IMG/VR virus record: IMGVR_UViG_3300044957_001619
Location: 1 to 40,012 of that record
DNA: 40,012 nucleotides
From: a virus
Strand: one strand, 5' to 3'
The notes under the pieces are model-generated. The model had not been told where the DNA came from, did no database searches, and was given only the letters and a program-made list of their open reading frames with translations. The stretch's first letter is position 1, and each line of letters begins with the position of its first letter. Of the stretch, positions 6,411 to 14,976 are shown in pieces. The position numbers and the translations under genes were made by a program.

Positions 6411-6784
6411 TATCGCGCCTGGAGCTTGTAGAGGGCTGCCGCCGGGTCGCCTGTCTTCGCGATCACGTCGAAGGTCGTGGGGAGGAGGCCCTTAGCGGGA
6501 TCAGGGGCCGTGATCTGGTGGCCCTTGGCAGGGATGACGCCGGCGGGGAGACTGGCGCCCAGGACAAGTACCTGACGATCAGTGGCGGGGATGCCGAGCG
6601 TCTGCCGCCGATAGTCGCTGTAGTCGGTCAGCAGCACCCTGCAGGGATAGACCGTCGCCGGGCCTGTCTTGAATCCGCCCTGGCCATCGGGAATACGCGC
6701 GCCGGGCACCGTCAGGGCGCCGACTTCGAAGTCCTCGCCAAAGTCTTCCAGGGCTTCGGCCGCAACGCCGTCGATGATGCTCAT
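6410..6784 (-). CDS. head-tail adaptor / head closure protein
   Basis: 124 residues starting MSIIDGVAAEALEDFGEDFE. ATG 6784 is chosen over an upstream ATG because it overlaps the previous stop (ATGA). It is predicted mostly beta (TVYPCRVLLTDYSDYRRQTL, DRQVLVLGASLPAGVIPAKG), like gp16/gpFII-type head closure proteins. It sits between the connector genes and the gp10-like gene. Likely role: plug or closure ring below the portal. The family name is inferred from position. Confidence 0.6.
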   Translation of the reverse strand: MSIIDGVAAEALEDFGEDFEVGALTVPGARIPDGQGGFKTGPATVYPCRVLLTDYSDYRRQTLGIPATDRQVLVLGASLPAGVIPAKGHQITAPDPAKGLLPTTFDVIAKTGDPAAALYKLQAR

Positions 6785-7065
6785 TCTGGTTCTGGTCCCG
6801 CCCACTCAGGCCAGAGGGGATCGCCGTCTTGCATCGTCCATTCGTGCGCTTCGTGCATTGCTGCAAACCAGCGGTTCCATGGCTCTTGCGTACGTGGGCC
6901 GTCGCCGGTGAGCGCGATGCTCGCCTGATACAGCTCCCTGTAGGCCGCATAAAGAAAGTCCCGCTCTGTCCGCAGGGCGTCCAGAAGAGCGGCACCTCTG
7001 TCGTTCGGAATGCTGGTCGATTCGGTTTCGATCAAGGCCTCGCCCCCATTCGATCCGGTGATCAT
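6781..7065 (-). CDS. hypothetical small late protein
   Basis: 94 residues starting MITGSNGGEALIETESTS. Two in-frame ATGs (7071, 7065) are available; 7065 is preferred because AGGAG is seven bases upstream, whereas it would be one base from 7071. The protein is acidic and Trp-rich (EPWNRWFAAMHEAHEWTMQD, PLWPEWAG). It is not recognised. It lies just after the inserted LAGLIDADG gene and overlaps the head closure gene, so it is probably an original member of the late operon. Confidence 0.7.
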   Translation of the reverse strand: MITGSNGGEALIETESTSIPNDRGAALLDALRTERDFLYAAYRELYQASIALTGDGPRTQEPWNRWFAAMHEAHEWTMQDGDPLWPEWAGPEPE

Positions 7066-7084
7066 CGGCATACTCCTAGCGGCG

Positions 7085-7789
7085 CTAAGCCGCTTTGATC
7101 CCGCGCTTGTTCAATGCGCGGACGGCGGTCAGGATTTCGGCAGCCTGGGCTCTCTGGTTATCATTGACTGCCAGACTGAAGTCCCGGCCGCGTTGGGGAA
7201 GCGCAAACACTAGGTCCGCTTGCCGTTGCTTCACCCGCAGATGGGGCCGGATCAGAGAGATGAGCGATTGGGCTTTCCGCCCTGTCAGTTGATAGCGATG
7301 GACCTTGTTCCAGCGCTCCTTGCTCTGATCCGGCCGCTTCGGTTCTGTCTTCTGCTCGTAAGCGCACCCGGCACCGATTGTGGCCAGAAGCCATTCGATC
7401 AGCGGGTAGTGAGAGTTGGTGACGCACACCATCGGCATCACCAGATGATCGCGCCGCACGACGGTGATCATTCCGTCTGCATCGACCATTCCCGCGATAT
7501 AGGCGGCATCGACATCCGTCAGAGGTTGGATTGCTGCGTGCGCCGCGTGTCGTTGAAGGCGAAGCGGCGCCGATTTCGCCGACTGATAGTGGGCCGAACA
7601 CATGCCCTTTGAGGCCCGAGGCTCATCACAGTTCGCGACGCTGCACGGCAGGTCCATTCCGTCCCGCATGTATCGCGATATGAGCGGGTCCCCGTTCGCG
7701 TACCATCTCTTGTAATGCTTCAAGCACCAGCCGCGAGCTTCACTCAGCTTGTCGCAGCCTTCGATAGAGCATATCGCTCGGTCAGCCAT
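7085..7789 (-). CDS. free-standing LAGLIDADG homing endonuclease with two N-terminal zinc fingers
   Basis: 234 residues starting MADRAICSIEGCDKLSEARG; GGAGGG precedes the ATG. Two tandem fingers of form C-x4-C-x9-C-x2-H lie at about residues 7-25 and 49-67. A single LAGLIDADG-type motif, AAYIAGMVDADGMITV, lies at about residues 95-110 with its acidic residue present; single-motif enzymes act as homodimers making a 3' overhang cut. The basic middle (KRPDQSKERWNKVHR) fits DNA contact. The gene interrupts the late block between the MuF-like protein and a small structural gene. It shares the finger module and the upstream hairpin with the HNH gene at 13.1-13.5 kb. AVNDNQ occurs near residue 208. 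Confidence 0.85.
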   Translation of the reverse strand: MADRAICSIEGCDKLSEARGWCLKHYKRWYANGDPLISRYMRDGMDLPCSVANCDEPRASKGMCSAHYQSAKSAPLRLQRHAAHAAIQPLTDVDAAYIAGMVDADGMITVVRRDHLVMPMVCVTNSHYPLIEWLLATIGAGCAYEQKTEPKRPDQSKERWNKVHRYQLTGRKAQSLISLIRPHLRVKQRQADLVFALPQRGRDFSLAVNDNQRAQAAEILTAVRALNKRGIKAA

Positions 7790-7806
7790 TTTCGACCCTC
7801 CAATGG

Positions 7807-7857
7807 TCGTTGTGGTTAGGGCTGATGTTGGCGTTCCAGCGCCTCATCAGCCCGATA
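7807..7857 (-). other. structured hairpin element 5' of the LAGLIDADG gene
   Basis: The minus strand carries ATC, then a 35-nt hairpin (outer stem GGGCTGATG/CATCAGCCC at 7819-7853; inner stem GGCG/CGCC; loop containing TGGAA), then TAACCACAACGA (7807-7818). It starts a few bases after the TAG of the upstream gene and ends about 20 bases before the endonuclease ATG. A same-length copy with compensatory changes precedes the HNH gene (13524-13573). Confidence 0.75.
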
Positions 7858-7860
7858 ATC

Positions 7861-8886
7861 CTAGGCCCTTTTGGCTTTGATGGCGATATATTCGTCGCAT
7901 CTGCATGCGACCGTTTCCGCCGCGCCAGCCCCTCGACTTTGGTCACCGGGGAACATCATCTGCGCGCCGCTTGGGCTGACGAACGGCGCATCCAGGCCCC
8001 GGACCTCTTGCCCGTTCATGGCGCCGTGGGTGTCGCGCTCGCGACCGTCCGTCGTGGTGGACCAGCCGCGCACGATGTCCATGACGTCGATCCGGCCATC
8101 GTCGGCCAGTTGCTGATAGGCTTCGTGCTTCGCGGCCCGGATGGCCGGGAGGCCTTCGGTTCGGGCGATGATCTCGCCACGGCGGCGGACCAGGCGCGCG
8201 GAATAGCGGGTGACAGCGGTGCGGGCGGTCTCGGCGGGGACAGGCTTGCCGGTTTCGATGGCGCGGGTCACGGCCCGGTCGTATCGGCGATCCCGCTGTT
8301 TCCGGGTCAGGTAGTGGCGCAGAAGGGCGGGGTCCGTCGAGGCCAACTCGGCGCGGGCGGTGGCGACGTGGTCACGATAGGGGCCGGAGAGACCGATCAG
8401 GCCGCCTTCACGGTTTCCGGTGGCCCGACTGATCCGTCCGACCAGATCCAGCGCCACAGACCGGGGACTGGCGCCGCGCGCCATGCCATCGGCGAGGTGC
8501 TGGCGAGCTTGCTGGATCTCGGTGTCGATCAGCCCTGTGATGAGACGGGCCGCCCGTTCTCGGATGATCGCGGCCGCGCGCTGATTGCCGGGGTCGAACC
8601 TGAACCCGATGGAGACGGCGGCCGGCATGGATGCGACCGCGCCTTGACCCCCGGCCGTAAATGCCTCCGTGAGTTTGGCCTCCAGGGGCTGGAATGCGGC
8701 CCGGTTGAGGTGAAGGGCGTCCAATGCGGATTGCAGATCGCCTCGTTCCATGGCCGCGATGACGCGCTGGACCTGTGCATTCCGAGTCAGGTCTCGGATC
8801 GCCGCCATGAAGGCTTCAGCGACCTCTTGGCCATACTTCGCCGCCAGCTCCCGGAAGAGCCGTTTTTGCGTCGGACGTCTGGCCAT
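7861..8886 (-). CDS. phage head morphogenesis protein (SPP1 gp7 / MuF-like)
   Basis: 341 residues starting MARRPTQKRLFRELAAKYGQ. The N-terminal two thirds are helical and Arg-rich. The C-terminal domain contains WSTTTDGRERDTHGAMNGQE followed by FPGDQSRGAGAAETVACRCD, the defining D-R-D-H ... C-R-C pattern of the MuF family. These minor head proteins enter the capsid with or next to the portal and may be ejected with DNA. The gene sits a few genes after the portal and before the endonuclease insertion. It ends in IKAKRA and TAG, immediately before the conserved hairpin. Confidence 0.85.
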   Translation of the reverse strand: MARRPTQKRLFRELAAKYGQEVAEAFMAAIRDLTRNAQVQRVIAAMERGDLQSALDALHLNRAAFQPLEAKLTEAFTAGGQGAVASMPAAVSIGFRFDPGNQRAAAIIRERAARLITGLIDTEIQQARQHLADGMARGASPRSVALDLVGRISRATGNREGGLIGLSGPYRDHVATARAELASTDPALLRHYLTRKQRDRRYDRAVTRAIETGKPVPAETARTAVTRYSARLVRRRGEIIARTEGLPAIRAAKHEAYQQLADDGRIDVMDIVRGWSTTTDGRERDTHGAMNGQEVRGLDAPFVSPSGAQMMFPGDQSRGAGAAETVACRCDEYIAIKAKRA

Positions 8887-8890
8887 GTGG

Positions 8891-9145
8891 TTAGGGCTTG
8901 AGAGCCCGGACGTGGGTGGCGGCTTGGGCCGTCAGGTCGAGATAGGCCTCGGCCTGACCCATGGCGACTTCCCGGATGCGAGCCACGGCGGCGGCGCCGC
9001 GATCTTCAATGATGGCGGCCTCCAGCGCGCGGGCCGAGGCGACCAGATCGAGAAGCGTCTCGGTCGCCATCTCAGCCGGCATGCGGTGAGCCGTTTCAGG
9101 ATCGTCGGGAATGATCGCCACGACGGGGAAAGTCGCACAGGTCAT
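8891..9145 (-). CDS. hypothetical small helical late protein
   Basis: 84 residues from ATG 9145 (MTCATFPVVAIIPDDPETAH); a longer reading would overlap the preceding gene deeply. The start is 5 bases after the previous stop. The C-terminal half is an amphipathic Ala-rich helix (TLLDLVASARALEAAIIEDR). No family is recognised. The position between the connector and MuF-like genes suggests a head-tail accessory function. Confidence 0.6.
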   Translation of the reverse strand: MTCATFPVVAIIPDDPETAHRMPAEMATETLLDLVASARALEAAIIEDRGAAAVARIREVAMGQAEAYLDLTAQAATHVRALKP

Positions 9146-9149
9146 CGCG

Positions 9150-9653
9150 TCAGCCAACCGACCATACACCGAGGCCGGAACCTGCGACTTCGGGAAGGAG
9201 AAACGGAGCGAGCAGCCCTTCAACGGCGCTCAGCTTGATCGTGGCGTCGGCGGCGGCATTTCCCGAGCCCTCGAAATACTCTCTCTCGATGGTGTCGATC
9301 TTCTTGCGCTTCAGGGCTTCGCTGGACCGTGCAGCAGCCGCCAGGCTGCCAGGGTTCTGCGCTTCATGCAGAGCAGCGTGATAGCTGGCGATGACGACAT
9401 TGCGAGGGATGGCGTCAGCGGGGACGGAAGCCTTCCAGAAAGTGGCGTTGACCCGGGGCCAGGCGCGCTCCTGGTCGATACCTCCAGCGGGTTCGCCCCT
9501 GAACCGCTGGCCATAGAGGGCGTCGATGTAGTCGCTGCCCCGTTGGCGCAGCTGGGCTACGGTCAGATCATCGTCGGAGCCGGTCGTGTAGCCGTTCTCC
9601 GCGATCCAGTCGGTGAAACTGCCCGCGCCGGTGTCTGATCCGTAGCCCGCCAC
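9150..9653 (-). CDS. head-tail connector protein (DnaT-like/gp6-like family)
   Basis: 167 residues with a GTG start at 9653 (MAGYGSDTGAGSFTDWIAEN), preceded by AAGG. It contains SDYIDALYGQRFRGEPAGG, which resembles the phage proteins annotated as putative DnaT-like ssDNA-binding proteins; these occupy the head-tail adaptor position. Helical throughout. Probable role: first adaptor ring below the portal. The alternative, DNA binding, is less likely given the neighbours. Confidence 0.65.
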   Translation of the reverse strand: MAGYGSDTGAGSFTDWIAENGYTTGSDDDLTVAQLRQRGSDYIDALYGQRFRGEPAGGIDQERAWPRVNATFWKASVPADAIPRNVVIASYHAALHEAQNPGSLAAAARSSEALKRKKIDTIEREYFEGSGNAAADATIKLSAVEGLLAPFLLPEVAGSGLGVWSVG

Positions 9654-9656
9654 GGC

Positions 9657-10064
9657 TCAGGCCTTCGCGTGTTCGACGACGAACGCGGCCTTGTCCTCGT
9701 CGGACAGGCCGTTGAACGCCGTCGCGTCGGCTTCAGACAGAGCGGCGCCCTGTTCCTTGCCGTCGGTGTCGAAGATGAACCACTCTTCGCCCTTGGCCTT
9801 GGCCTCGTAAGTGATCGGGTCCTTGCCCGGGTTGGTGACGGCCTTCTTGCCGCCCTTGGCCTTGGCCTCGTAAGTGATCGGGTCCTTGCCCGGGTTGGTG
9901 ACGGCCTTCTTGCCGCCCTTGGCCTTGGGCTCAGCGTCGTCCGCCACGATCTCGTAGCGGCCTGCCCAGCCGGTCGGCTCGTCCTTCACGGTGAAATACG
10001 AGCCGACCGGCACTTCCTTGCCTTCGCCATCGAAGATGCCGCCGGCGGTGATCTTGATGCGCAT
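9657..10064 (-). CDS. small late protein with internal 21-residue repeats
   Basis: 135 residues starting MRIKITAGGIFDGEGKEVPV, with AAGGAG upstream. The first 45 residues look like a small beta domain (GSYFTVKDEPTGWAGRYEIV). The middle consists of just over two near-identical 21-residue Lys-rich repeats containing GGKKAVTNPGKDPITYEAKA. The acidic C-terminus (LSEADATAFNGLSDEDKAAF) is helical. It lies just downstream of the major capsid gene, a usual place for a capsid-associated or connector accessory protein. Not recognised by family. Confidence 0.7.
   Translation of the reverse strand: MRIKITAGGIFDGEGKEVPVGSYFTVKDEPTGWAGRYEIVADDAEPKAKGGKKAVTNPGKDPITYEAKAKGGKKAVTNPGKDPITYEAKAKGEEWFIFDTDGKEQGAALSEADATAFNGLSDEDKAAFVVEHAKA
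9788..9928. repeat. 63-bp in-frame tandem repeat, about 2.2 copies
   Basis: Copies at 9788-9850 and 9851-9913 are identical as far as can be read, and a partial third copy runs to 9928. The period of 63 bp preserves the frame and adds 21 residues each time. Exact identity at the DNA level points to recent duplication by slippage or unequal recombination. Confidence 0.9.
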
Positions 10065-10090
10065 GGTGCGCTCCTTCCGTCGAAAGGGAA

Positions 10091-10112
10091 GGCCCCGGCC
10101 GAAGCCAGGGCC
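10091..10112 (-). terminator. hairpin terminator/attenuator after the major capsid gene
   Basis: The minus strand reads GGCCCTGGC-TTCG-GCCGGGGCC: a 9-bp stem with one T.G pair and a stable TTCG tetraloop, followed by TTCCCTTT. It begins 11 bases after the capsid stop codon. It probably stabilises the capsid message or attenuates downstream transcription. Confidence 0.6.
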
Positions 10113-10122
10113 CGCCGGTGGG

Positions 10123-11178
10123 TTAGTTGACGACCGTCGAGTAGAAGACGCCCGACTTGCCGTTGAAGTCCGCTCGGACCTCCAGGCCCATCGCCCCCAT
10201 GTTGAGGAACTGATAGTTGTCGGTCGGACGCAGACGGGTCAGGGCCGTGGTGTTGACCGCCATGCCGATGATCGGACGGATGTAGCGAGCGTTCGGCACG
10301 AAGCCGAAGAACGCATTGCCCGACAGCTTGAAGGTCTTCTCGATCTTGGCGATCTGGGGGTTGGTCAGGACCTGCTGAAGCAGGGTTCCGTTCTTGAAGC
10401 CGGCCGAGCCCGAATAGGAACGCAGCAGGTTCCGATAGATCTCCGGCGAGACGTAGATGTTCACCGGTCCCGAGATGAGGTTGGCGTCCAGCATCGCCCC
10501 GAGGGTGCGAGTGAAGAAGCCGTCGATCGCGTCGGAAGTGGTCGCCGATGCGGACAGATCGATGTTGGCGCCGCCCGCTCCCGACCCGAGGTTGATCGCC
10601 TTGGACAGGGGGTTCGTGCGGATGCCGGTGGCGGCATAACCCTGAAACACGATGGTGCTGTCGCCGTCCAGCACATAGTCGGCCATGTCGCGGTTGATCT
10701 TGTCCAGCGCGGCTTCCTGATCGTCGGCCAGGGCGTCGAAGTTCTCCGACTGAAGGGTGTTCCATTCCCGCCATTCGCGGCCGAAGCCGTCTTGGAAGAT
10801 CGGAACCGGCGTGCCCCGGAAGTTGTAAGTCACCTTGTCCATGGGGACCGGCACTTGGCCCGTCATGGAGCGGACGACCGGGTTAGCGGAGTCCGACGCC
10901 ACACGGGTCATGTGGACCAGCTTGCCGATGTTCACCGGCTTCGCCAGGCTCATCAGGTCCGACATGTAGACGTTGCCGCCGTCGTCACGCATCACGCGCT
11001 GGGTGATGGTGTCGAACTCCTGCCAGGCGTCACGCGGCAGGACAGCCGCCGCGTTGCCGTGGAAAGTGGCGAAGTGGTCTTCCACGTGGTGGAAGTAGTC
11101 GCGCTCGACGCCAAGGTCGTCCCACCATTGAGCATGGGGGCGCGAGTTGGCGACGAGTTGATCGTCGAAGTAGCGCAT
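10123..11178 (-). CDS. major capsid protein, HK97 fold (DUF6260-like)
   Basis: 351 residues starting MRYFDDQLVANSRPHAQWWD. No separate delta domain is apparent, consistent with scaffolding by the upstream protease/scaffold gene. Typical elements include an N-arm (FDTITQRVMRDDGG), an E-loop-like segment (VPVPMDKVTYNFRGTPVPIF), a spine-helix region rich in D/E (EWNTLQSENFDALADDQEAA), and a C-terminal beta-rich domain (NIYVSPEIYRNLLRSYSGSA). It forms the icosahedral shell. The gene order protease/scaffold, decoration, capsid and the post-gene hairpin support the call. Confidence 0.85.
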   Translation of the reverse strand: MRYFDDQLVANSRPHAQWWDDLGVERDYFHHVEDHFATFHGNAAAVLPRDAWQEFDTITQRVMRDDGGNVYMSDLMSLAKPVNIGKLVHMTRVASDSANPVVRSMTGQVPVPMDKVTYNFRGTPVPIFQDGFGREWREWNTLQSENFDALADDQEAALDKINRDMADYVLDGDSTIVFQGYAATGIRTNPLSKAINLGSGAGGANIDLSASATTSDAIDGFFTRTLGAMLDANLISGPVNIYVSPEIYRNLLRSYSGSAGFKNGTLLQQVLTNPQIAKIEKTFKLSGNAFFGFVPNARYIRPIIGMAVNTTALTRLRPTDNYQFLNMGAMGLEVRADFNGKSGVFYSTVVN

Positions 11179-11190
11179 GTCCGACCCTCC

Positions 11191-11640
11191 TTAGGCGACG
11201 GCCACGTTCCGAGGAGCCTTGCGCACGCGCACAAGCTGATCGGAACCGGTGTTGTTGTTGAAGGCCTCTTCGGCGACCACGATGACGTTCTGCCCGCTCG
11301 TCGCGAGGACGAACTTGCCCGCGCTGTTGGTGGTCAGTTCGGCGTCCTTGGCGACGTTTACGCCCGTGGGGACGCGAACGTTGTAGAACTGCTCGTCCAG
11401 CAGCTCGAGGCCGACGCCTCGATCTCCGGAAAGCCAGGCATCATCGACGCCCTTCATGGCGAGATAGTTGTCCTGAAGGATGTAGATGCGGTCGCCGGAG
11501 TTGGCGCCGGCCTGAGCGAAGTTATTGCTGGACCGAACGACGGCGGTGCCGGGCAGATAGGCGCCGTTCAGGATGGCTTCCTGAACCTGGGGAAGGGTCT
11601 CGGTGACCGGACCCGCGAAGATCTTGTTGAAGCGGGGCAT
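11191..11640 (-). CDS. capsid decoration / stabilisation-like protein
   Basis: 149 residues starting MPRFNKIFAGPVTETLPQVQ. Predicted beta-rich and Gly/Asn-rich (ILNGAYLPGTAVVRSSNNFA, TSGQNVIVVAEEAFNNNTGS). In BcepNazgul-like and related phages a protein of this size separates the protease/scaffold from the capsid gene and is considered a head decoration or capsid-stabilising protein. It ends in a basic tail (RVRKAPRNVAVA). Function is inferred from position and composition. Confidence 0.55.
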   Translation of the reverse strand: MPRFNKIFAGPVTETLPQVQEAILNGAYLPGTAVVRSSNNFAQAGANSGDRIYILQDNYLAMKGVDDAWLSGDRGVGLELLDEQFYNVRVPTGVNVAKDAELTTNSAGKFVLATSGQNVIVVAEEAFNNNTGSDQLVRVRKAPRNVAVA

Positions 11641-11641
11641 C

Positions 11642-12019
11642 TTAGTTCACCGCCTTCGGGGGCGTGTGGCCCTTGCGCTCACCCGTGCGGGGGGTGAAGC
11701 CGTTGACGATGGGGGCGGCCTTGCCGGGCTCGGCCTTGGGAGCCAGGGCGCGGGCGGCGTTCAGGGTGAGCTCGCCGGCGGCGGCCTCGTCCATGATGTT
11801 GCCGGCGACGATCTTCTCGCGAAGGGTCTTGAGCTCCGCTTCCTCGGTCGCCTTGGCGCTGTTGGCCTGAGCCTCCAGCTGTTCGGTGATCGGCTTCAGC
11901 GCATTGGCGACCGCCTCGGCGACCGAAGTCCCGATGCTGGTGCCGATGGTCTTCACGCTTTCCGAGAGGGTCTTCACCTCGCCGGACAGCGCATCGAACT
12001 GTTCTTTCGAGACAGTCAT
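11642..12019 (-). CDS. nested scaffold protein from an internal start
   Basis: In-frame ATG at 12019 (MTVSKEQFDALSGEVKTLSE) is preceded by AAGGA with a 7-base gap. The 125-residue product is the helical C-terminal domain of the protease/scaffold gene and ends before the basic tail GERKGHTPPKAVN. This is the arrangement of lambda C/Nu3, where the scaffold is translated from inside the protease gene. Confidence 0.5.
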   Translation of the reverse strand: MTVSKEQFDALSGEVKTLSESVKTIGTSIGTSVAEAVANALKPITEQLEAQANSAKATEEAELKTLREKIVAGNIMDEAAAGELTLNAARALAPKAEPGKAAPIVNGFTPRTGERKGHTPPKAVN

Positions 12020-13054
12020 GTCAGCGTCCTTGTTTTGCTGTTCAGAGGGGACCCGCTCGGAGCCTTTGAGGGCCTCGATAAGGGCGGTTTTGACGCGCTC
12101 CAGCCACGACGCACGCTCGCGCCGGTCCAGAGCTTGGGCGAGGTTGTCCAGCGCCCAATCGACGCCACGCTCAGCATCCTCGGTGAGGGTGCTGTTGATG
12201 ACGCCGATCTCTTTGCCCGCCGAGTTGACCATCATGCCGACGCCCTGTTCCGGGGTGGCCGCGCCGTCCTCGTCCAAGAGGATCGCGTCGTGGTCGAACT
12301 CGATATCGCGAGCGGTGAACTTGTAGGGAACGTCGCCGTTGGCGGCGTCCATGATGGCCAGCAGGCCGGTAGAGGTATGGACCGGGTCACCGGCGTCGAT
12401 GGCCGCCAGCACCCGCTTGCCGCCCTCGGACTGGTTGGCGCGCTCGACGTCGATCACCTTGTCCAGCAGGACGCGGCCGCCTTCCTGACGGACGTTCTCA
12501 TTCCAGGCGCCGATCCAGCCTTGGTTCAGGCCCTCGGGGTCTCGCGCTGACAAAAACTTGCCGTTGACGCTGGGATGGCCCAGCGGAGCCGGGGTCCGCT
12601 CCAGCGACTTGAACGACTTCGCGATCTCCGCCGCCGGGTAGAGGATGTCGTTCATCACGACGTCGTCGGGCAGGGTGGCGGAGGGGACGATGATCACGTC
12701 GCGCCCGTTGCGCTTCTCGCGTCGGATCTTGGCCGAGTTGGCCAGGGTGCGGATGTTGACGCGGACCTGATCACCGGCAATGAGGGCCTTGTTGACGCGG
12801 ACGGCATCATTCATGGACGCCATGTCACCGCGAGACGATGACTCGCCGGTCAAGGCGCTTAGTGCCTCGACCATCATGTCCATCATCGCCTGCTGCGATT
12901 CCTCACCGGCTGCGCCTGTAGTGGGGGCCGTGCCGTTCATATGTTTCTTGTGAAGAGCAATCGCGTCCTGCAATTTGGCTTTGGCCAGCGCGATATCTTT
13001 CGTCCGATCCTTGTTCACGACGAACGTGCGGGCGTTCACGTCATGCTGTTGCAC
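11642..13054 (-). CDS. prohead protease fused to scaffold domain (DUF2213-like)
   Basis: 470 residues with a GTG start at 13054 (MQQHDVNARTFVVNKDRTKD), preceded by GGAGG. The central part (about residues 90-290) resembles the DUF2213 family, with LERTPAPLGHPSVNGKFLSA and DAGDPVHTSTGLLAIMDAAN, interpreted as a capsid maturation protease. Residues 345-470 are a helical, charged scaffold domain. A second translation start inside the gene (12019) could make the scaffold alone. The HNH insertion lies between this gene and the portal. Confidence 0.75.
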   Translation of the reverse strand: MQQHDVNARTFVVNKDRTKDIALAKAKLQDAIALHKKHMNGTAPTTGAAGEESQQAMMDMMVEALSALTGESSSRGDMASMNDAVRVNKALIAGDQVRVNIRTLANSAKIRREKRNGRDVIIVPSATLPDDVVMNDILYPAAEIAKSFKSLERTPAPLGHPSVNGKFLSARDPEGLNQGWIGAWNENVRQEGGRVLLDKVIDVERANQSEGGKRVLAAIDAGDPVHTSTGLLAIMDAANGDVPYKFTARDIEFDHDAILLDEDGAATPEQGVGMMVNSAGKEIGVINSTLTEDAERGVDWALDNLAQALDRRERASWLERVKTALIEALKGSERVPSEQQNKDADMTVSKEQFDALSGEVKTLSESVKTIGTSIGTSVAEAVANALKPITEQLEAQANSAKATEEAELKTLREKIVAGNIMDEAAAGELTLNAARALAPKAEPGKAAPIVNGFTPRTGERKGHTPPKAVN

Positions 13055-13114
13055 GCGCGCCTCCTTCGGATTGTGGATGTGGTCAGGACTCGGCGGCCGG
13101 GTCGTCTTCGGGGG
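13055..13114 (-). other. intergenic stretch with possible displaced portal C-terminal codons
   Basis: After the HNH stop, one minus-strand frame reads LAPEDDPAAES then TGA (stop at 13083-13085), an acidic tail similar in composition to the portal C-terminus, which ends SEDEERDALGSPDDDADVLG. It may be what is left of the portal 3' end after endonuclease insertion. The rest of the interval contains the AAGGAGG ribosome site of the protease gene. Confidence 0.3.
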
Positions 13115-13507
13115 CTAAGTCAGCCAAGCCCAAGTCGCGCCCGATGAGATCAGGCTGATAGTTGCTCTGGCCACGCCGAAGCGTTCGGCAATGGCTTCGT
13201 GACCGGACGTCGGCGGTGCGCCGTGCGCGAACTCACAGATGATCCGATAGGCTCGACGAGACCGGTGCGCTGGGTGACCGCCGTTGGCGTAGCCGTTCTT
13301 GTCGCGGGCAAAGGGCCAGATCAGGCAGTCGCTGCCGTCGTGCTTCAGAGCGACTTCGTCGATCCATTCTTTGACGGCGCCGTTGCGTGTTCCACCCGCC
13401 AGTTCGTCACCGTGTCGGCGCCAGCGCCGATAGTGGGATTCACACCAGCCACGCGCCAAGTGCGGCTTGCCGCAGCCGTCGATTTTGCATACCGCAGGGG
13501 TAGCCAT
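13115..13507 (-). CDS. HNH homing endonuclease with its catalytic core deleted
   Basis: 130 residues from ATG 13507 (MATPAVCKIDGCGKPHLARG), chosen because GAGG lies just upstream; the earlier ATG at 13519 has none. An N-terminal C-x4-C-x9-C-x2-H finger matches those of the LAGLIDADG gene. The HNH family core begins normally (DCLIWPFARDKNGYANGG, AYRIICEFAHGAPPTSGHEA). It then jumps to the C-terminal helix-turn-helix (IAERFGVARATISLISSGAT), lacking the family's usual C-G-N ... C-V-N-P-x-H-L segment. The reading frame is intact, but the enzyme is probably inactive. Confidence 0.75.
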   Translation of the reverse strand: MATPAVCKIDGCGKPHLARGWCESHYRRWRRHGDELAGGTRNGAVKEWIDEVALKHDGSDCLIWPFARDKNGYANGGHPAHRSRRAYRIICEFAHGAPPTSGHEAIAERFGVARATISLISSGATWAWLT

Positions 13508-13523
13508 GGCGAACCTCATCCGT

Positions 13524-13576
13524 TCGTTGTGGTTAGGCTCGGCGGGGCGCTTCCAACACCTCGTCGAGCCGATATA
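13524..13576 (-). other. structured hairpin element 5' of the HNH gene (second copy)
   Basis: The minus strand has ATC, a 35-nt hairpin at 13536-13570 (outer stem GGCTCGACG/CGCCGAGCC with one A.C mismatch; inner stem GGTGT/GCGCC; loop TGGAA), then TAACCACAACGA at 13524-13535. Length and layout equal the copy at 7807-7857. Four of nine outer-stem pairs differ by compensatory double changes. It begins just after the portal stop codon. Confidence 0.75.
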
Positions 13577-13578
13577 CC

Positions 13579-14976
13579 TTAGCTTCTTTCGCGCTTCCCC
13601 CCAAGCACATCAGCGTCATCGTCAGGCGACCCGAGCGCGTCTCGCTCCTCATCTTCCGAGACCTCATCCCCGAACTTATCGGCGTCGCTGAGCGGCTCGC
13701 GCCCGACTTCCGAGCGCATCTCATCGCCAGTGAAGACCAACTCATTGGAGGCGCGCATCTTGTCGTTGACGGCAGCCATTCGTTCGACCCGCTCAAGCAT
13801 TTCATTCGGGGAGGGGTCGAGCAGGCTCTTCCAGTCCAAGAACCAGTCCTTCGCCGGCAGGATGCCGAAGCGCTCCAGACGGTTGACGAAACCCATGATC
13901 GACGGGATCGCCTGATTGATGCGCCGGGCCATGTTGACCTTGGCCCATTCCTCGCTGTCCTCGGTCGAGGCGCGCTCGCCGGTCTGAGAGCCGATCAGCA
14001 CCTTCATCGGGATCGAGAACGAAGCCGCGAACGACTGCGCAGCCACGGCGAAGAAGTGTTCAGGCGAGGGCAGGTTCACCTGCATCGGCGTCGCCTTGAT
14101 GCCCTGGAGCAGCAGCGACTTGTCGAAGCCGGCGTTGAACCCCTCGACCTGCTCGTTGATCTTGTCGACCAACTCGGGAACGGGCACGTCCATGGCGCGG
14201 GCCATGTTCTCGACGTTGGCGTCCTTGTCGATCTCCAGGCTCAGGCCGGACTTAGCGTTCTTCCAGAAGCCCTCGCCGCCGCCGCCCCGGATCTTCTCCA
14301 TGTCCAGGAGGGCGTTGTAGCCGGGCTCGAGGGCGGAGCGGCCGTTGAGCGTCCCATCCGCCGACCAGACTATCACCCTGTCCGGGTGGATGTTGAAGGT
14401 GCGCGGCTGTTGCTGTTGACCGACCGCGCTCTCGGCGAAAGCGAACATCTTCGGCTGCCCGTAGGTCTCCGACCGTTCGTCCGTGTCCCATTCGCTGACG
14501 GTCAGCTGGCCTTCCCAGGCAGGGATGACTTCGGCTAGGCCGAGCAGCCCGCCATTCACCCGATCAACGGGCTCGCGGAAGGGCTTGTCATCGGCGAGGC
14601 GGAGGATCAGCCCGGCATAGGCGCCGACCAAGCCTCGGCGGTCGCACTCGGCCATGTGCTGCCAGACCCGGAGATCATCGAACCGCTGGCGGATATCGGC
14701 CTCGAGCTTAGTCTCGCCCTGGTCGCCGTCCTTGGTCCCGTCTCGTTGGAACTCCTGGAGGAAGGGATTGTCCTCCCAGGTCTTGCCGATGGTCTTGTCC
14801 ACCGCAGCGGCGGCGAGCGGGTAGCGGGTGTAGGCGTGATAGGCCTCGGCGAAGGTGACCCGGTCAGGATAGCCGAAGTCGGCGGCGTGATTGTGCTTCT
14901 GCCCGCCGAAGAAGCCGGGGAACATCGTCTGAAGCGACCGGGAAGCCGCGTTCAGCAGGAGGTGACGGGCACTCAT
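13579..14976 (-). CDS. portal protein, DUF1073 family
   Basis: 465 residues starting MSARHLLLNAASRSLQTMFP; the ATG overlaps the large terminase stop (ATGA). DUF1073 hallmarks include an early YPLAAAAVDKTIGKTWEDNP region, RTFNIHPDRVIVWSADGTLN, and a glycine-rich helix MEKIRGGGGEGFWKNAKSG. The late part (IPMKVLIGSQTGERASTEDS) is also typical of this portal class. It forms the dodecameric channel for DNA packaging. The C-terminus is strongly acidic (DEVSEDEERDALGSPDDDAD) and may have been changed by the endonuclease insertion next to it. Confidence 0.85.
   Translation of the reverse strand: MSARHLLLNAASRSLQTMFPGFFGGQKHNHAADFGYPDRVTFAEAYHAYTRYPLAAAAVDKTIGKTWEDNPFLQEFQRDGTKDGDQGETKLEADIRQRFDDLRVWQHMAECDRRGLVGAYAGLILRLADDKPFREPVDRVNGGLLGLAEVIPAWEGQLTVSEWDTDERSETYGQPKMFAFAESAVGQQQQPRTFNIHPDRVIVWSADGTLNGRSALEPGYNALLDMEKIRGGGGEGFWKNAKSGLSLEIDKDANVENMARAMDVPVPELVDKINEQVEGFNAGFDKSLLLQGIKATPMQVNLPSPEHFFAVAAQSFAASFSIPMKVLIGSQTGERASTEDSEEWAKVNMARRINQAIPSIMGFVNRLERFGILPAKDWFLDWKSLLDPSPNEMLERVERMAAVNDKMRASNELVFTGDEMRSEVGREPLSDADKFGDEVSEDEERDALGSPDDDADVLGGKRERS

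Follow-up and report, generated by a model that had tools for sequence, protein, structure and literature searches.

Why should two unrelated endonuclease genes in one virus be preceded by the same small folded element? The question is raised by a 40,012-base virus record from IMG/VR (IMGVR_UViG_3300044957_001619), analysed whole and hereafter called the window, in which the structural genes lie on the minus strand. One copy of the element (E1) stands at the junction of the MuF gene and a LAGLIDADG endonuclease gene, and the other (E2) at the junction of the portal gene and an HNH-derived gene. An initial annotation of the sequence had described each copy as a hairpin outside any RNA family that it recognised, and had suggested that it might mark the 5' boundary of a mobile unit or control translation. 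We propose, with a probability of roughly 0.87, that each element is one copy of a gene for an antisense RNA of the SymR/RepX type, carried in a mobile cassette together with a sense promoter and a zinc-finger homing endonuclease, and that the RNA represses translation of the endonuclease. This proposal is drawn from sequence, namely from the strand asymmetry of the fold, its covariation, a position-specific antisense promoter signal, the match to SymR and RepX, and the presence or absence of the insert in related phages.

Results

On the sense strand, E1 reads GGGCTGATG-AGGCGCTGGAACGCCAA-CATCAGCCC followed by TAACCACAACGA, between the MuF stop codon (7861) and the start of the LAGLIDADG gene, and E2 reads GGCTCGACG-AGGTGTTGGAAGCGCCC-CGCCGAGCC followed by the same TAACCACAACGA, between the portal stop codon (13579) and the start of the fingered HNH-derived gene. 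The positions given in the initial annotation were borne out, as were the shared layout, the TGGAA loop and TAACCACAACGA, the double compensatory changes at four outer pairs (pairs 3, 4, 5 and 8) and the C-x4-C-x9-C-x2-H finger in both endonucleases. At outer pair 7, E2 has A.C on the sense strand, which is G.U on the antisense strand. When the folds were compared with dinucleotide shuffles, none of 1000 was as stable as E1 on either strand (z -4.7 sense, -6.8 antisense); for E2 the figures were 12 of 1000 on the sense strand (z -2.4) and 0 of 1000 on the antisense strand (z -5.3). The hairpin proved to be only half of the feature, and it is the other strand that should be read. A second covarying hairpin, with the Shine-Dalgarno sequence in its loop, occupies the space between linker and ATG, and its arms change together, from CGACC/GGTCG in E1 and L056 to CGAAC/GTTCG in E2 and CGACG/CGTCG in L071.

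Read on the plus strand of the window, the sequence opposite each endonuclease start predicts an antisense RNA of about 72 nucleotides (Table 1). Its promoter would lie within the first 14 codons of the endonuclease, and the RNA would start opposite codon 2 and run through stem-loop 1, with an anti-Shine-Dalgarno loop, UUGUGGUUAG and stem-loop 2, which is the hairpin first reported. Two covarying stem-loops connected by UUGUGGUUAG, as expected of the SymR/RepX type in its broad sense, are present in both window copies.

Further copies were collected from viral contigs. A first DNA pattern, GGAAN{10,20}TAACCACAACGA, gave mostly chance matches, only L019, L056, L071 and L084 being real. A second pattern, which required the linker, GGAG (Shine-Dalgarno) and ATGGC, found at least 119 stretches; removal of chance groups left 79 copies among the matches listed, 59 of which have downstream proteins with dissimilar N-termini. 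The 79 copies were selected for a stable hairpin 1 (sense numbering; stem-loop 2 of the RNA) and most also show hairpin 2, and since the pattern itself demands ATGGC and the linker, their conservation in this set carries no weight as evidence. Swapping arms between copies destroys both stems, and none of 300 permutations reached the observed mean. Stem-loop 2 is stabler on the antisense strand in 54 of the 59 non-redundant copies and on the sense strand in 3 (Wilcoxon p 2e-10), with 124 G.U pairs on the antisense strand against 19 on the sense strand. Because an antisense G.U pair is A.C on the sense strand, the antisense RNA appears to be the molecule under selection for stem-loop 2.

The antisense strand of the 59 phage copies was used to build a covariance model, R1. 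Among 68 matches, most of them new, all nine pairs of stem-loop 2 change on both sides, with 240 double-changed cells against 80 after shuffling, 94.7% of cells paired against at most 51% when slid, and a covariation score of 0.64 against 0.16 for shuffled alignments; because the alignment was made by fitting to R1, these figures are somewhat favourable. Covariation extends to the base of stem-loop 1, since copies with ATGACT have TAATCA, as does symE. Covariation is strong. The view that structure is kept and not sequence is right. One R1 match in the window, at 8858-8910 (8.5 bits, E 0.8), was taken as chance.

The antisense promoter is visible inside coding sequences that are otherwise unrelated. 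When the 59 genes are aligned at the ATG, nucleotide 18 is A or T in 58, and the modal letters at nucleotides 36-41 are TGTCAA (nucleotide 37 being tied), which is TTGACA on the opposite strand. In 43 of the 59 phage genes the expected place holds an antisense sigma70 -10 box, counted where four or more of six letters agree with TATAAT; shifted places in the same genes gave a mean of 6.1 and a maximum of 11. A -35 box occupies its expected place in 24 of 59 against 6.7. Genes of bacterial genomes, found by the covariance model and not by the pattern, gave 27 of 39 against 3.6 for the -10 box and 12 of 39 against 3.3 for the -35 box. A promoter inside the target open reading frame (ORF) that reads back over the ribosome binding site (RBS) is present statistically across the copies, the boxes of the window copies themselves being weak. 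A sense -10 is enriched too, directly before hairpin 1 (36 of 59 at the peak), so that the sense and antisense promoters would face each other and the two RNAs overlap by about 70 nucleotides. The tail after the terminal stem-loop, where a FinO/ProQ client RNA would have unpaired U residues, has on average 4.6 T in 10 positions across copies, against a background of 2.8, and is weak in the window copies.

SymR and RepX lay outside the training set of R1, and neither fits the DNA pattern. R1 finds both at full length, E. coli SymR at 3336-3412 of L214, exactly its RefSeq coordinates (37.3 bits, E 1e-8), and RSF1010 RepX with 40.2 bits (E 1.5e-9). Contrary to the initial annotation, the element thus belongs with a described kind of RNA, although the Rfam models miss it at their cut-offs: at gathering thresholds, neither the window copies nor the copies in 13 phage loci were detected. 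When 101 bases of the window were scanned at a permissive threshold, symR (RF01809) matched on the opposite strand (27.6 bits, E 7e-4) and Plasmid_R1162 (RF00043) on the sense strand (22.1 bits), and these sub-gathering matches suggested an antisense RNA. BLAST gave no match for the L084 element in phages, nor for the Rfam symR consensus in E. coli. The C4 antisense RNA of P1/P7 (RF01695) was considered as well, as icd/Ant-type genes carry the element; it was rejected, and has no match in the window and one in L097, far from the element there.

Portal relatives occur with and without the insert. In the insert-free L234 the portal protein ends GDPEDDPAAEA* and the next gene follows immediately. 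The window and L216 have the end of the portal gene split by the insert, and the former portal tail (CCCGAAGACGACCCGGCCGCCGAG..CCTGA) lies beyond the HNH stop codon. The hairpin does not coincide exactly with the 5' boundary of the mobile unit, as the portal-site insert starts tens of base pairs upstream of it and includes its own sense promoter. In each of the five insert-bearing relatives read, the hairpin is preceded by TTGNNG-N17-TARNNY (TAAGGT, TAAACT, TAATAT, TAGAAC and TAGTCT), in which TAR is both the new portal stop codon and the start of the -10. At the second site, the MuF gene of relatives runs directly into the next gene; E1, the LAGLIDADG gene and a 96-amino-acid ORF occupy this place in the window. 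This ORF (6781-7071, minus strand), whose family was not recognised, follows the LAGLIDADG gene in the insert.

The LAGLIDADG gene shares 37-40 of its first 45 nucleotides after the ATG with the HNH genes of L056 and L071, and beyond nucleotide 45 similarity drops to 2-10 of 15 per block. As this drop lies just past the antisense -35, the leader together with the antisense promoter looks like a swapped piece. A protein-guided search with the LAGLIDADG protein found no relatives in viral contigs, and a host-genome search for the HNH protein gave a match in Martelella only. The gene downstream of E2, initially called HNH, is indeed HNH-derived and fingered; the window copy has an in-frame loss of 195 nucleotides at the 9-nucleotide repeat CACGAAGCC, which removes the HNH core and leaves the antisense element intact. 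The relative L216/L019 has the full gene (195 amino acids in L216), and the loss reflects either real decay or an assembly collapse at the repeat.

The initial annotation had raised the possibility that such elements always precede finger-containing endonucleases. Among relatives of the window phage this largely holds, as all 18 matches read precede fingered endonucleases and the linker is present at 19 of 21 distinct fingered genes; elsewhere many other genes stand downstream. The downstream proteins include HNH, EndoVII, GIY-YIG, LAGLIDADG, NUMOD and AP2 endonucleases, Rha and Bro-N/Ant regulators, RadC and SymE toxins, the last in 6 of 40 bacterial-genome matches. In bacteria, sampled within Pseudomonadota alone, 39 of 299 genomes have R1 matches at E <= 0.001; in a sample from one alphaproteobacterial class the figure is 17 of 240. 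When 53 of the genome matches were examined, the ATG stood where predicted in 48, and 45 had an ORF of 40 amino acids or more. A control of the descriptor on reversed sequence gave 0 against 14. Eight GenBank phage endonuclease loci gave the element in two (Rhizobium phage RHph_N3_2 and Sulfitobacter phage phiGT1) and not in the other six.

Table 1 Predicted antisense RNA genes, promoters and target genes in the window.
Feature	Position	Strand	Basis
Predicted antisense RNA gene E1 (SymR/RepX-like), opposite 5' end and leader of LAGLIDADG gene	7784..7856	+	R1 60.4 bits (training-set member); fold z -6.8; Rfam symR sub-threshold, 27.6 bits
Putative E1 antisense -35, TTGTCG (4/6)	7749..7754	+	17 nt from -10; position-specific enrichment across unrelated genes
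Putative E1 antisense -10, TATCGC (3/6 to TATAAT; weak alone)	7772..7777	+	Nucleotide-level conservation between LAGLIDADG and HNH genes
E1 stem-loop 1, base AGCCAT/GTGGTT, CGACC-CTCCAAT-GGTCG, anti-Shine-Dalgarno loop	7784..7817	+	Fold; base covaries in copies with ATGACT/TAATCA
E1 stem-loop 2 (hairpin of the initial annotation), terminator-like	7819..7853	+	Sequence, strand asymmetry, covariation
Putative sense -10 TAGGAT (shares bases with TAG, the MuF stop codon), with TCGCCA at 7881-7886 as a weak -35	7858..7863	-	Sequence; sense -10 enrichment across copies
Two-finger LAGLIDADG endonuclease gene, 234 amino acids	7085..7789	-	
Predicted antisense RNA gene E2, opposite 5' end and leader of HNH-derived gene	13502..13573	+	R1 62.4 bits (training-set member); fold z -5.3
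Putative E2 antisense -35, TTGCCG (4/6)	13467..13472	+	Sequence
Putative E2 antisense -10, TACCGC (2/6; weak)	13490..13495	+	Sequence; 17-nt spacing and position as in E1
E2 stem-loop 1, base AGCCAT/GTGGTT, CGAAC-CTCATCC-GTTCG	13502..13534	+	Fold
E2 stem-loop 2 (hairpin of the initial annotation)	13536..13570	+	Sequence, strand asymmetry, covariation
Putative sense promoter TTGGGG-N17-TAAGGT, -10 overlapping TAA stop of interrupted portal gene	13576..13604	-	Same layout in relatives L240, L225, L224, L217
Fingered HNH gene that lacks 195 nt, including the HNH core (putative decay; junction near 13193)	13115..13507	-	

Several further observations concern individual copies. Two related fingered endonuclease genes of this phage group, in L302 and in L322 (minus strand, near the locus end), are without the element. 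In phiGT1 (L444, 701-1267), the element and the finger place the start of phiGT1_12 at 701 (189 amino acids), and the annotated start at 818 looks wrong. Some single bacterial genomes hold many R1 matches (5 in G020, 7 each in G354 and G522, and 9 in G019), several of them before very short ORFs starting MADSENTRT, and an expansion of the RNA as an element in its own right is possible there. A small prophage protein family (MAGTQHTQTHPKF..WLFLATP; L119, L141, L106, L173 and similar), which resembles Icd/Ash-type proteins, repeatedly carries the element.

Discussion

The most likely function of the two RNAs, by analogy with SymR and RepX, is cis-antisense repression of endonuclease translation. 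From a promoter inside the first endonuclease codons, the RNA would start opposite codon 2, read back over the start codon, the Shine-Dalgarno sequence, the linker and the 5' hairpin, and fold into two stem-loops. It would then base-pair with the leader of the endonuclease mRNA, to which it is complementary, and block ribosome binding, so that the endonuclease would stay off unless sense transcription outran the antisense RNA, as could happen, for instance, upon arrival in a new cell. Such an arrangement would silence a DNA-cutting enzyme in resident phages or in lysogens, and permit a burst once the cassette has reached a cell that lacks the RNA. That the RNA is produced in this phage, that it represses and that it serves this purpose are what we infer. 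The control of translation suggested in the initial annotation is retained as the likely purpose, with the antisense RNA, and not the sense hairpin, as the selected molecule.

Several results weigh against this proposal. The antisense promoters of the window are weak by E. coli standards, and a generic sigma70 scan at a threshold of at least 9/12 found none. A strong U-run after stem-loop 2 is missing from both window copies, as it is from E. coli SymR. Stem-loop 1 shows no strand preference in stability among the 59 copies, and both Rfam matches fall below their gathering scores (61 for symR and 55 for R1162). The Shine-Dalgarno hairpin of the leader could also act in cis, and a sense leader that controls translation alone, as in T4, with the Shine-Dalgarno sequence in a hairpin loop and hairpin 1 shielding or positioning the 5' end, would need no antisense RNA. 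Both hairpins do form in the sense RNA too, and T4-type endonucleases are described as using RBS-sequestering hairpins, and Aeromonas phage seg43 as having a hairpin immediately 5' of the RBS (PMC2988022). We give a purely sense leader only a slim chance, as it leaves unexplained the excess of antisense G.U pairs, the antisense promoter conserved inside unrelated coding sequences and the match to SymR and RepX, and as the Shine-Dalgarno sequence of the window elements is in the loop and not, as in RBS-sequestering T4-type leaders, in the stem.

That the hairpin acts as DNA, as a 5' boundary or as a recombination or cleavage site of the mobile endonuclease unit, would suit its place near the 5' end of inserts that are variably present among relatives. 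The upstream start of the portal-site insert with its sense promoter, the occurrence of the element before genes other than homing endonucleases, such as SymE and plasmid repA, and the fact that a DNA site would need neither G.U pairs nor an antisense promoter make this very improbable. Ordinary coding sequence, or a terminator of the upstream gene, folding by chance deserves almost no credence: a short open frame running across the hairpin can end at the TAA of the tail, but the upstream genes stop before the element, covariation is strong, the sense side has no T-run, and the element recurs behind unrelated upstream sequence and before unrelated genes. The hairpin was also considered as a coding remnant, which was rejected. 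Convergence bears on kinship. Antisense RNAs over translation starts may commonly arrive at an anti-Shine-Dalgarno loop and a terminator hairpin, so that SymR, RepX and the phage copies would be alike and unrelated; according to El Mouali et al., FinP and RepX are similar in having two stem-loops, with identity at scattered positions (PMC8136791), and the stems have no sequence in common. We nevertheless regard convergence as unlikely, because the ten-base linker, the AGCCAU start with its partner GUGGUU, the spacing and the promoter position are common across hosts and genes, the full-length E values for SymR and RepX are 1e-8 to 1e-9, and swaps such as that of E1 against L056/L071 point to transfer of the RNA between gene types within phages.

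On balance we lean towards a single mobile RNA family that would unite SymR, RepX and the phage and bacterial copies: a portable antisense off switch of about 110 base pairs (antisense promoter and RNA gene), swapped onto the starts of unrelated genes and, in particular, an RNA antitoxin that would silence homing endonucleases except during transfer. In the literature searched, which was open literature with most subscription journals and preprints outside its scope, no paper mentioning both SymR and RepX, no account of the breadth of this RNA type and no report of RNAs of their type on homing endonucleases was found. The RNA type itself is already known; its unity with a large phage family and its use on homing endonucleases appear to be new. 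The grouping would connect a toxin-antitoxin RNA and a plasmid copy-number RNA, studied apart for decades, with a large family of unannotated phage RNAs, and suggests how homing endonucleases come to be tolerated in phage genomes. Its predictions are testable in isolated phages, and the element can correct start-codon annotation, as for phiGT1_12.

Comparison with known systems

The T4-type leader hairpins of I-TevI, segB, mobE and seg43 share with the window elements a leader RNA structure that limits translation. T4 homing endonucleases are restrained by sense hairpins, which are cis-acting structures, and the passages of the review on these leaders describe no antisense RNA (PMC2988022). 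FinP, which acts on traJ with the chaperone FinO, is likewise a two-stem-loop antisense RNA over an RBS, and RepX has been described as FinP-like (PMC8136791); the FinP spacer, however, reads GACA. RepX (R1162; RF00043) controls the copy number of RSF1010 and restrains its replication, forms two stem-loops and binds FinO (PMC8136791). It resembles the window RNAs in its two stem-loops with GUUAG between them, in the complement of an AUGGCU start and in its overlap with the RBS of the target, and differs in that it controls plasmid RepA and in that its Rfam model reaches only 22.1 of 55 bits on the window. SymR, of the E. coli type I toxin-antitoxin pair symE-symR (RF01809), represses SymE synthesis from a promoter within the symE ORF (PMC1891008). 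The window RNAs differ from it in their targets, which are finger-containing homing endonucleases in phage inserts and not the SymE toxin, and in lying below the cut-off of the Rfam symR model. They resemble it in starting opposite nucleotide 6 of the ORF, in the anti-Shine-Dalgarno stem-loop, the UUGUGRUUAG linker, the terminal stem-loop and the promoter in the ORF, and eight of the collected copies precede proteins of the SymE family.

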